Source of the DNA: Rhodobacter aestuarii
GTDB lineage: Bacteria > Pseudomonadota > Alphaproteobacteria > Rhodobacterales > Rhodobacteraceae
Direction of reading: 5' to 3'
DNA: 64,000 bases
NCBI RefSeq assembly: GCF_900156655.1
Contig: NZ_FTOG01000001.1
Span: 558,001-622,000, forward strand
The position numbers and the translations under genes are program-made. The notes beneath the pieces were generated by a model. It made no database searches. It was not told where the DNA came from and was given only the letters and a program-made list of their open reading frames with translations. How positions within the stretch are numbered: the stretch's first letter is position 1; the number at the start of each line of letters is the position of its first letter. Below are positions 54,322 through 57,357 of the stretch, piece by piece.

Positions 54322-54438
54322 CTAGAACCAGCTTTGCACCGTGCGCGCCACGCCCGAGACATCGTCACCGATGCCTGCAACGGTGTTGCATCCGGTGAGT
54401 GTGAGCGCCATTGCGGCCAAAAGGATCAATCTTTTCAT
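54322..54438 (-). CDS. entericidin-like small lipoprotein
   Basis: A 38-aa lipoprotein precursor, MKRLILLAAMALTLTGCNTV..., with a lipobox LTGC and a short mature peptide NTVAGIGDDVSGVARTVQSWF fragmentwise typical of entericidin A/B (EcnAB) peptides. It is too short for ORF callers with a 60-aa limit. Its ATG overlaps the stop of the YejA-like gene (ATGA), so it is coupled to it. E. coli entericidins form an antidote/toxin lipopeptide pair; only one is present here. Confidence 0.82.
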   Translation of the reverse strand: MKRLILLAAMALTLTGCNTVAGIGDDVSGVARTVQSWF

Positions 54439-56285
54439 TGCTCTGCCTCAATCCACCAAGCATCGGGCGTTACGCCCGGCCAATCTCCGTATAGCGGAAC
54501 AACCGTGGGGCTGTGAAGGTTCCGCGTATGGGCCACGCGCGAAACCGGCGAAAACCAAACCGGAATGACATAGCGCCCGGCGGTCAAGACACGGTCGAGC
54601 GCGCGCACCGCTGCGGTGAAATCGTCCGTGTCGCGCGCATCGAGCATCGCGGCAATCATCGCCTCAGCGGCCGGGGAGTTCATGCCCATAAGATTGCGTG
54701 AACCGGGTTCTGTGACGCCTTGCGATCCCCAATAAAGATATTGCTCATTGCCTGGCGATAGCGAGGTTGCCACCCAAAACCATGTCATATCAAAGTCATA
54801 GCCATTTTTGCGGGCCTGAAATTGGGCATCATCCACCACTGTGATGGTTGGGAAGATGCCCAAGGGCCGCAACGCTTCCACATAGATATCAACGATGGTT
54901 TGCGCCTCTGAGCCTTGTGGCAGCACAATTTCAAAGGTGAAGGGGGTGCCTTCGCCGTTTTTCAGCACGCCTGCGGCATCCGCCTCCCAACCCGCCTCGG
55001 CCAACAGCTTTAACGCGGCGCGGGCATTGCGACGGTTTGATGGTGAACCATCAGATGCAGGGAATGCATAGCCTTCAACCGTTCCGGGAAAAAGTTCAGC
55101 CTTAAAGGGTTCTAGCAAAGCCGCGACTTTTTCGCTGGCTGGGCCGGGTTGCAGGGCGAGCGGTGAATTGCCAAAGTAAGAGGAAATGCGCGGTTCCACA
55201 CCCCCTGTCAGCGTCGTGTTGATGAATTCAAAGTTGAAAGCGCGGATCAGTGCCTCGCGCACGCGCCAATCGGCAAAAATCGGTTTGCGCGTGTTCATCA
55301 CCAGCCCCTTGATGCCCGAAGGCGTCGCGCGGGGAATTTCCTCTTTAACGACAAGGCCTTCGGTCATGGCCGGGAAGGTGTAATCGCGCGCCCATTTGAC
55401 CGGGTTCCCTTCGCGATAAAGGTCCAGATCGCCGGCCTTAAACGCCTCAAACATCGCATTCGGGTCGCCAAAATAGTCCCATCGCAGCGTGTCGATGTTC
55501 TGTAGCCCTTGCGTCAGGGGCAGATCTTTGGCCCACCAATCGGCGTTGCGTTTAAGTGTGATCACACGGCCCATATCGACCCTGTCGATCACGTAAGGCC
55601 CAGACCCCACCGGGATCATCTGCGTTTCTGTTGCGAAATCATGGCCTTGCCACTGAGCTTTTTCCAGAACCGGGCGCAGCCCCATGATCAGCGCCAATTC
55701 CCGGTTTTGTTCAGAAAAGGTGATGCGCAGGCTCCGTTCGCCGGTTTGTTCGATTTTGGCGACTTTTCCCCACGCATTTTGGTAGCGCGGCGCGCCCGCG
55801 GTGCCGAGCGTTTCATATGACCAAATCACATCTTCGACCGTGACTGGGGCGCCATCGGAAAAGCGCGCCTCGGGGCGGAGCGTAAACTCGACCCAAGTCC
55901 GCTCGGGGTCTGTTGTCACGCTTTCGGCCAAAAGCCCGTAGAGCGTGAACGGCTCGTCATAGCTGCGCAGCATCAGCGACTCGGTCACATAGCTGGAAAT
56001 GCCCTGCGCGGGCCGCCCGGCCAAAACCCAGGGGTTGAGCGAATCGAAGCTGCCGGTTTCGCCCATCCGCAAGGTGCCGCCCTTCGGCGCTTGCGGGTTG
56101 GCGTAGGGCAGATGGGCGAAACCTTCGGGCAAGGCAGGGGTGCCATACATGGCGATACCATGGGTGATTCCCGCGCCGGGACCGATTCCCTGCGCGGGCT
56201 CAGCCTGCGCGCCAAGGCTTGCGAGAATCGGTGATACGGCCAGAGTTAGCGCACTCAGCCGGTGGAAAAAGACTGATCCCCTCAT
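54435..56285 (-). CDS. extracellular solute-binding protein family 5 (YejA-like)
   Basis: A 616-aa periplasmic peptide-binding protein with a signal peptide (VFFHRLSALTLAVSPILASLGAQA). Family-5 features: ALPEGFAHLPYANPQAPKGGTLRMGETGSFDSLNPW near the N-terminus, VESVTTDPERTWVEFTLRPEARFSDGAPVTVEDVIWSYETL and GVTEPGSRNLMGMNSPAAEAM near the C-terminus. This resembles YejA of the microcin C/peptide importer. No permease or ATPase gene lies beside it, so it is an orphan binding protein here. The entericidin-like gene overlaps its stop. Confidence 0.88.
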   Translation of the reverse strand: MRGSVFFHRLSALTLAVSPILASLGAQAEPAQGIGPGAGITHGIAMYGTPALPEGFAHLPYANPQAPKGGTLRMGETGSFDSLNPWVLAGRPAQGISSYVTESLMLRSYDEPFTLYGLLAESVTTDPERTWVEFTLRPEARFSDGAPVTVEDVIWSYETLGTAGAPRYQNAWGKVAKIEQTGERSLRITFSEQNRELALIMGLRPVLEKAQWQGHDFATETQMIPVGSGPYVIDRVDMGRVITLKRNADWWAKDLPLTQGLQNIDTLRWDYFGDPNAMFEAFKAGDLDLYREGNPVKWARDYTFPAMTEGLVVKEEIPRATPSGIKGLVMNTRKPIFADWRVREALIRAFNFEFINTTLTGGVEPRISSYFGNSPLALQPGPASEKVAALLEPFKAELFPGTVEGYAFPASDGSPSNRRNARAALKLLAEAGWEADAAGVLKNGEGTPFTFEIVLPQGSEAQTIVDIYVEALRPLGIFPTITVVDDAQFQARKNGYDFDMTWFWVATSLSPGNEQYLYWGSQGVTEPGSRNLMGMNSPAAEAMIAAMLDARDTDDFTAAVRALDRVLTAGRYVIPVWFSPVSRVAHTRNLHSPTVVPLYGDWPGVTPDAWWIEAEQ

Positions 56286-56359
56286 CGCAACAATCCTTGT
56301 TTTCCTGTGTTTTCAGCGCTCAAGCTAACCTGACCCGGGGGCAGAGGCAAACTTTTCCC

Positions 56360-56388
56360 TTGGAACTGAGGCCCGGCAGGATTATAAA
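56360..56388 (+). promoter_or_regulatory. sigma-70 type promoter of the candidate sRNA
   Basis: TTGGAA (56360-56365), exactly 17 bases, then TATAAA (56383-56388). Start of transcription is expected near 56395. Confidence 0.6.
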
Positions 56389-56394
56389 GGTCTC

Positions 56395-56470
56395 ACTGCT
56401 CGATAGGTTTCTTGCCTGTATGAAACCTGCCTCATGACTTGACGCCCGCCTTGCGCGGGCGTCTTTTTTT
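56395..56470 (+). ncRNA. candidate small RNA with terminal hairpin
   Basis: No gene overlaps this ~75-base stretch. A first stem AGGTTTC/GAAACCT spans 56405-56428; a second, GACGCCCGC/GCGGGCGTC (56441-56463), is directly followed by seven T residues, a textbook Rho-independent terminator. A well-spaced promoter lies just upstream. It could be a stand-alone Hfq-type sRNA (hfq is in the window) or an attenuated leader of bdhA, which starts 85 bases further on. A five-codon MKPAS reading frame is present but has no Shine-Dalgarno. Confidence 0.6.
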
Positions 56471-56554
56471 ATGCCTGAAGGCTGGCAAACCATTGCGCGA
56501 CGCCGCGCCCGGGTTACTTCTTCCTCAACGGATTTTAGAAATGGGGAGAGAAGA

Positions 56555-57328
56555 ATGAGCCTGAAGGGCAAGACAGCGATCATCACCGGGTCGAATTCCG
56601 GCATTGGTTTGGGGGTCGCACGCGAATTGGCGCGAGCGGGCGCGGATGTGGTGCTCAATTCCTTCACCGATCGCGAAGAGGATCATGCGCTCGCGGCCGA
56701 GATCGGCAAAGAGTTTGGCGTGACCGCGCGCTACATCAAGGCGGATATGTCGAAGGGCGCAGAGTGCCGCGCGCTGATCGAACAGGCCGGGCGCTGCGAT
56801 ATTTTGGTCAACAATGCGGGTATCCAACATGTTGCCGCTGTTGATGAATTTCCTATCGAGAAATGGGATGCGATTATTGCGATCAACCTGTCGTCCGCCT
56901 TTCACACCACCGCTGCCGCGCTGCCGATGATGCGCAAAGCGGGCTGGGGCCGGGTGGTCAATATCGCTTCGGCGCATGGGCTGACGGCATCGCCCTTTAA
57001 ATCCGCCTATGTCGCGGCGAAACATGGGGTGGTGGGCTTTACCAAAACCGTTGCGCTGGAAACGGCGGAAGAGCCGATCACCTGCAATGCGATCTGCCCG
57101 GGCTATGTGCTGACGCCTTTGGTGGAGGCGCAGATCCCCGATCAGATGAAGGTGCACGACATGGATCGGGAGACGGTGATCCGTGAGGTGATGCTGACGC
57201 GCCAACCCTCGAAAGAATTCGCCACGGTCGAGCAATTGGGTGGCACCACGGTGTTTCTGTGCTCCGATGCGGCGGCGCAAATTACCGGCACGACGATCTC
57301 GGTCGATGGTGGCTGGACCGCACTTTAA
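56555..57328 (+). CDS. bdhA: 3-hydroxybutyrate dehydrogenase
   Basis: A 257-aa short-chain dehydrogenase that interconverts 3-hydroxybutyrate and acetoacetate in polyhydroxybutyrate and ketone-body use. It has the NAD motif TGSNSGIGLGVA, NNAGIQHVAAVDEFP, catalytic Ser/Tyr/Lys in NIASAHGL and YVAAKHG, and the family end stretch VTLVEAQIPDQ-like segment followed by TAQITGTTISVDGGW. The AHGLTASPFKSAY and NNAGIQHV stretches are those of BdhA. The ATG at 56555 has GGGGAGAGAAG before it. Confidence 0.9.
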   Translation: MSLKGKTAIITGSNSGIGLGVARELARAGADVVLNSFTDREEDHALAAEIGKEFGVTARYIKADMSKGAECRALIEQAGRCDILVNNAGIQHVAAVDEFPIEKWDAIIAINLSSAFHTTAAALPMMRKAGWGRVVNIASAHGLTASPFKSAYVAAKHGVVGFTKTVALETAEEPITCNAICPGYVLTPLVEAQIPDQMKVHDMDRETVIREVMLTRQPSKEFATVEQLGGTTVFLCSDAAAQITGTTISVDGGWTAL

Positions 57329-57331
57329 GAT

Positions 57332-57357
57332 CAAAAAAGGGGGCCGAAAGGCCCCCT
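57332..57357 (-). terminator. terminator of the DUF502 gene (minus strand)
   Basis: On the minus strand GGGGGCC/GGCCCCC (57339-57345 and 57350-57356) with a 4-base loop is followed by six T residues (57333-57338). On the plus strand it may also stop bdhA. Confidence 0.83.

Follow-up and report, generated by a model that had tools for sequence, protein, structure and literature searches.

A probable stand-alone small RNA gene beside bdhA in Rhodobacter aestuarii, conserved across its bacterial family in a near-invariant 40-nt block

Small RNAs (sRNAs) of a build similar to the one described here work by Hfq-assisted pairing in trans. MmgR acts on polyhydroxybutyrate granules, and SorY, a stand-alone sRNA of Rhodobacter, is about 83 nt long. 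StsR of Rhodobacter sphaeroides is given as 72 nt long in the accessible part of one report (PMC8307010) and is termed an orphan sRNA in that of another (PMC8625941). The promoters of RpoHI/RpoHII carry TTG and TAT, according to the accessible part of PMC10673084. For Paracoccus denitrificans, the accessible text of PMC5107571 describes two expressed RNAs found across the Rhodobacteraceae, Intergenic 134 and Intergenic 60 (84 and 80 nt), the former in a gene context common with a putative R. sphaeroides sRNA.

We analyzed a 64,000-nt stretch of Rhodobacter aestuarii DNA (the window), in which a sequence-only reading had proposed an Hfq-type sRNA upstream of bdhA. The RNA, of approximately 76 nt, is placed at 56395..56470 on the plus strand from homologues, fold, and alignment, with its 5′ end at 56395 inferred from the conservation edge and the promoter spacing. 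The −35 element TTGGAA (56360 to 56365) is followed by a 17-nt spacer and the −10 element TATAAA (56383 to 56388), so that the promoter spans 56360..56388 (+) and the conserved RNA start falls 6 nt past the −10 element, as the sequence-only reading had it. This arrangement is rarer than chance in the window: TTGG-N19-TATAAA occurs once against 0.02 expected and was present in 2 of 100 shuffles. A strict sigma-70 scan, in which T was required at the last −10 position, returned no promoters here against 1.1 expected. Among 205 distinct upstream sequences, TATA stands at −12 in 195, and TTGG stands at −35 in 179 and at −36 in 11 (together 190). Thus, the RNA gene appears to have its own promoter, at fixed spacing in most of these sequences, and the pattern seems equally compatible with sigma-70 and RpoH-type recognition, which it does not tell apart.

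Further conserved sites lie upstream. Just 5′ of the −35 element, CAAACTTTT (56348..56356, no strand assigned) is conserved, with AAACTTTT in 166 of the 205 sequences; it may serve the divergent transporter promoter as its −35 region, or it may be an upstream element. On the minus strand, GTTAGC (56324..56329) is a possible −10 element of the divergent solute-binding-protein gene, with CTA conserved at −70 to −68. The conserved sites between 56286 and 56360 are apparently common to both divergent promoters. By eye, the transporter-gene leaders of many species also have a motif like ACAAGGGCAGAGCRGGATTGTT ahead of the start codon.

Folding of the 76-nt RNA is predicted at −28.0 kcal/mol, whereas its shuffles average −15.6 (z −4.86; none of 200 did as well), and a slightly longer piece gave a z of −5.20. 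The predicted hairpin 1 (56404..56429, +) has an 8-bp stem with arms UAGGUUUC and GAAACCUG and a 10-nt loop, UUGCCUGUAU. All eight pairs are invariant among 70 aligned sequences and the loop almost never varies, an invariance owed in part to selection, as the exact-core scan supplied many of the 70 rows; since the helix never varies, its covariation speaks neither for nor against it. An A/U-rich linker that mostly ends in ACUU (56430..56440, +) varies in other species. The intrinsic terminator (56441..56470, +), located by a terminator scan, has a stem of nine pairs (56441 to 56463), eight of them G-C, followed by T7 at 56464 to 56470. Terminator-like patterns are expected by chance in so GC-rich a stretch (8 found in the window against 5.3 expected), and this one is the strongest of the eight. 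Its helix shows two-sided changes in 8 of 9 pairs across the 70 sequences, with 98.9% of cells paired and a covariation score of 0.215, which none of 500 shuffles reached (shuffled score, 0.080). The two hairpins of the sequence-only reading, the last a 9-bp GC-rich stem ending in T7, are therefore present as placed.

Homologues were found by BLAST, with the RNA plus promoter as query, in all 18 genomes of the genus. In a draw of 295 genomes from the family, 290 matched at an E value of ≤0.01, and 289 of these were strong, the weak one (genome G182) having an E value of 0.0028. A covariance-model search of G182 and the five matchless genomes was also empty; these six assemblies are fragmented (70 to 530 contigs, 71 to 92% complete), and the absence may come from assembly gaps. 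All 292 genomes of an order draw carried the RNA (weakest E value, 3.8e-16), in 112 genera that all belong to the same family, with a single match per genome in 290. It was found in 124 of 125 genomes of a second genus, most likely Paracoccus, as judged from flank similarity to two of seven named Paracoccus loci. Among 337 genomes drawn from the class, the five of the family scored at least 100.7 bits, while the other 332 reached at most 32.7 bits under strict filters that may have missed weak relatives. When named genomes were scanned with a 37-nt core, at least 118 stretches matched; the matches listed were from Rhodobacterales or unclassified Alphaproteobacteria and included Ruegeria pomeroyi, Leisingera, Sulfitobacter, Paracoccus, and Neomegalonema. 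In plasmid records the RNA was on four Paracoccus replicons of 1.5 to 2.2 Mb, and none was found in the phage records searched. Homologues in hundreds of genomes exclude a chance origin.

The first 40 nt of the RNA (56395..56434, +), which take in an unpaired 5′ tail, all of hairpin 1, and the first linker bases, form a near-invariant block in the homologue comparison. With exact-core finds left out and the count limited to BLAST and covariance-model loci, the block was unchanged in 115 of 116. After de-duplication it was identical in 104 of 105 distinct neighborhoods, the lone exception having two changes. Single-cell genomes also keep it intact, although the stretches retrieved from them are 35% GC (the window is 61%). 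Across 30 readings, no conserved open reading frame was found in the block: the sole start (ATGAAACCT...) leads to MKPAS, MKPASIT, MKPASMT, or run-ons. The RNA thus appears to be non-coding, with the frame from its sole internal ATG not conserved.

We consider it probable that this is an sRNA gene that stands alone in a single copy, served by a promoter and terminator of its own, and that the RNA pairs in trans. The comparative evidence, namely distribution, covariation, the conserved promoter, and loci free of bdhA, strongly supports the stand-alone sRNA of the sequence-only reading; promoter, hairpins, terminator covariation, conservation, and independence from bdhA can each be read from sequence. 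In the proposed mechanism, RNA polymerase would start near 56395 at the RNA's own promoter and halt at the intrinsic terminator, yielding an RNA of approximately 72 to 76 nt independently of bdhA. The first 40 nt (the open 5′ tail, the hairpin with its pyrimidine-rich loop, and an open CCUCA) would be the surface that does the work. Hfq would be held by the U-rich tail and the A/U-rich linker, and several mRNAs would pair with the 5′ tail and the loop and so change in translation or stability. Hfq-assisted pairing in trans is argued from RNA anatomy and from other sRNAs of the same build; we infer transcription, Hfq binding, trans pairing, and regulation rather than observe them. The label "Hfq-type" is compatible with the anatomy, a U-rich terminator tail preceded by an A/U-rich linker, and we use it in that sense only.

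Two neighbors, bdhA and the divergent transporter gene, were screened as targets. The bdhA mRNA was no more complementary to the RNA than shuffles were (mean z −0.26 over 187 loci; complementary 8-mers in 11 loci against 9.9 in shuffles), with target regions that may be off by a few codons where start codons are mis-set. For the transporter gene, there was a weak and mixed excess of seeds. Loop 7-mers occurred in 18 of 160 loci against 5.2 in shuffles (largest, 11) and 5′-tail 6-mers in 41 against 15.3 (largest, 26). Counts were 27 against 23.4 for loop 6-mers, 7 against 3.4 (largest, 10) for 5′-tail 7-mers, and 9 against 7.8 for linker 6-mers. Duplexes with this gene were no better than shuffles (mean z −0.08). 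Given that value, and because related species are not independent, we treat the transporter signal as a lead only.

The RNA might instead stand alone but act mainly by binding protein, as do 6S RNA or the CsrB-type RNAs. Both strands of hairpin 1 are fixed in the 70 sequences and the loop nearly so, which suits a protein-recognition element, and neither of the two neighbors showed a conserved target site. A protein-binding role is possible because RNAs that pair solely through open regions do not usually have a stem without variation. However, a fixed block is also expected from several conserved mRNA targets, no Rfam family matched at its cut-off, and the RNA sequence has no repeated GGA motifs of the kind seen in CsrA sponges. 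We regard this explanation as unlikely.

The sequence-only reading had named an attenuator in the bdhA leader as its main alternative, in which the hairpins would decide whether polymerase reads on into the gene. The label of the downstream gene was right: bdhA (56555..57328, +), which lies outside the RNA gene, encodes a D-3-hydroxybutyrate dehydrogenase, matching TIGR01963 at 370.5 bits (cut-off, 307.05). On the other side is a divergent gene for a family 5 ABC transporter solute-binding protein (54435..56285, −; PF00496), and R. sphaeroides has the same order of solute-binding protein, RNA, and bdhA. Across 209 loci, bdhA is downstream in 173, at least 700 nt without bdhA follow in 25, and 11 are too short to judge; for the 202 distinct loci the counts are 166, 25, and 11. 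The divergent gene is upstream in 194 of the 209 loci (187 of the 202). The same-strand position of bdhA in those 166 loci, mostly 113 to 313 nt from the RNA start, is what an attenuator would predict. Yet 25 of the 202 have none, and in 15 of the 173 bdhA-bearing loci the gene lies 414 to 2,291 nt off, although a controlled gene should always follow on the same strand.

At loci without bdhA, the longest reading frame that follows often lies on the opposite strand. Pfam identified this convergent neighbor as Mfd in loci L144, L162, and L155 and as DUF502 in L150. The mfd stop coincides with the RNA 3′ end in L144, falls within the RNA in L162 and in L174 (the latter judged by likeness to L162), and is about 430 nt beyond the RNA in L155. 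At such loci, an attenuator therefore has nothing to control. Furthermore, hairpin 1 is too invariant for switching between exclusive folds, and the predicted fold of the 76-nt RNA contains no alternative antiterminator pairing. An attenuator is thus disfavored as very improbable, and the link between the RNA and bdhA is positional. In L162 and L174, which come from AT-rich single-cell genomes (35% GC over the stretch retrieved), the opposite-strand mfd stop is at the TCA of the block, which is unaltered. In the window, a strong GC-rich hairpin with a T-rich tail (57338 to 57357, −) and an A-rich other side lies between the convergent bdhA and DUF502 genes and is probably a bidirectional terminator.

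We also give very little credence to the proposal that the RNA is StsR (RSs0827), the partner of the sRNA UpsM and rpoE mRNA in R. sphaeroides. This was our initial lead. As far as the accessible parts of the reports go, the 72-nt length fits (PMC8307010), the RNA promoter has the TTG and TAT of RpoHI/RpoHII promoters (PMC10673084), and StsR is termed an orphan sRNA (PMC8625941). The lead was dropped on map position. In the R. sphaeroides genome that we used, SorY lies within 3 nt of its published 2.4.1 position and PufL is identical to a typed R. sphaeroides sequence; the homologue of our RNA is at 1,443,996 to 1,444,075 on the minus strand. RSs numbers rise along the chromosome (RSs0680a at 692 kb, RSs0682 upstream of mraZ at 695 kb, RSs1543 at 1,633 kb, RSs1624 at 1,725 kb, and RSs2461 at 2,598 kb). 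By this scheme, which is our own deduction given that RSs0019 is on chromosome 2, RSs0827 is expected near 850 kb, whereas our RNA (ACTGCTCGATAGG...) falls near number 1370. On this numbering, the two are probably distinct.

That the region makes no functional RNA and acts at the DNA level only, as a strong terminator and a regulator site that shield the divergent transporter gene from bdhA, is extremely improbable: the intergenic region does hold conserved sites common to the divergent promoter, but constraint centers on the transcribed 40 nt and not on the promoter, the terminator arms change in compensating pairs, and the block survives in the 6 of 202 distinct loci that lack both neighbors.

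Returning to the stand-alone sRNA, we believe that the point of interest is the exceptional conservation of a single-copy, family-wide sRNA gene. To our knowledge, few bacterial sRNAs hold 40 consecutive bases nearly unchanged family-wide. The RNA is very probably an important regulator and would mark an old and heavily constrained regulatory hub. We suggest tentatively, and with somewhat more doubt than belief, that it is a core-genome sRNA, present once in almost all members of the family, whose 40-nt surface is frozen over more than 100 genera by simultaneous pairing with many conserved mRNAs or with a conserved protein, and that its role is central, perhaps essential. The host family matters for marine carbon and sulfur cycling and provides models of photosynthesis, and the fixed sequence means that a single probe or deletion design would serve many laboratory strains.

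Among known RNAs, neither the window nor the R. sphaeroides locus gave a match at the cut-off of any Rfam family, and the RNA is absent from Rfam 15. The best sub-threshold match was suhB/MmgR (RF00519), at 27.1 bits against a cut-off of 41. MmgR was tempting because it acts on polyhydroxybutyrate granules and bdhA is a hydroxybutyrate gene. Like suhB/MmgR, the RNA has a 5′ hairpin, a linker with ACUU, and a terminator. Unlike a true member, it scores below another site of the same genome. We rejected this identity, as the RNA is under the cut-off and relatives carry a separate suhB: in two of them (G018 and G021), suhB passes the cut-off at 60.4 and 61.7 bits, and the RNA homologue lies elsewhere. 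The other site in the window's genome (contig C19, 670768 to 670845; 30.8 bits) is perhaps the true MmgR.

The RNA resembles SorY (RF02651) in being a stand-alone RNA of similar size in Rhodobacter, but the SorY model, whose cut-off is 111, gives it 19.1 bits and gives its R. sphaeroides homologue 15.3. SorY itself is at 1,632,645 in the R. sphaeroides genome and on another contig in the window's genome; its model scores 115 bits in the former and falls to 51.7 in the latter, where our family model still gives the RNA 100.7 bits. SorY, SorX, CcsR1, and UpsM were ruled out, as all are sited elsewhere in R. sphaeroides. The SorY-like site of the window's genome (contig C11, 239239 to 239318), at 51.7 bits against 111, has a similar upstream element, and Rfam may have set the cut-off too high for other genera. 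StsR shares the similar length, the stand-alone character, and the bacterial family, but the map position of the RNA homologue does not fit its numbering.

Six 14- to 15-nt pieces of the RNA had no match in open full text, a search outside which lie most subscription journals and supplements, and an earlier description under another name is quite possible. The published PD1222 coordinates, 759,993 to 760,077 for Intergenic 134 and 1,384,880 to 1,384,960 for Intergenic 60, gave no match among the 125 genomes of presumed Paracoccus. In the accessible part of PMC5107571, the lists for Intergenic 134 and 60 include matches outside the family, such as our RNA lacked in the class draw, and that for Intergenic 134 omits genera expected to have our RNA. 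Like Intergenic 134, which by our own reading of the numbering in that text is on chromosome 2, the RNA is on a second replicon of 1.5 to 2.2 Mb in close Paracoccus relatives. The RNA may be the same as one of these P. denitrificans RNA-seq candidates.
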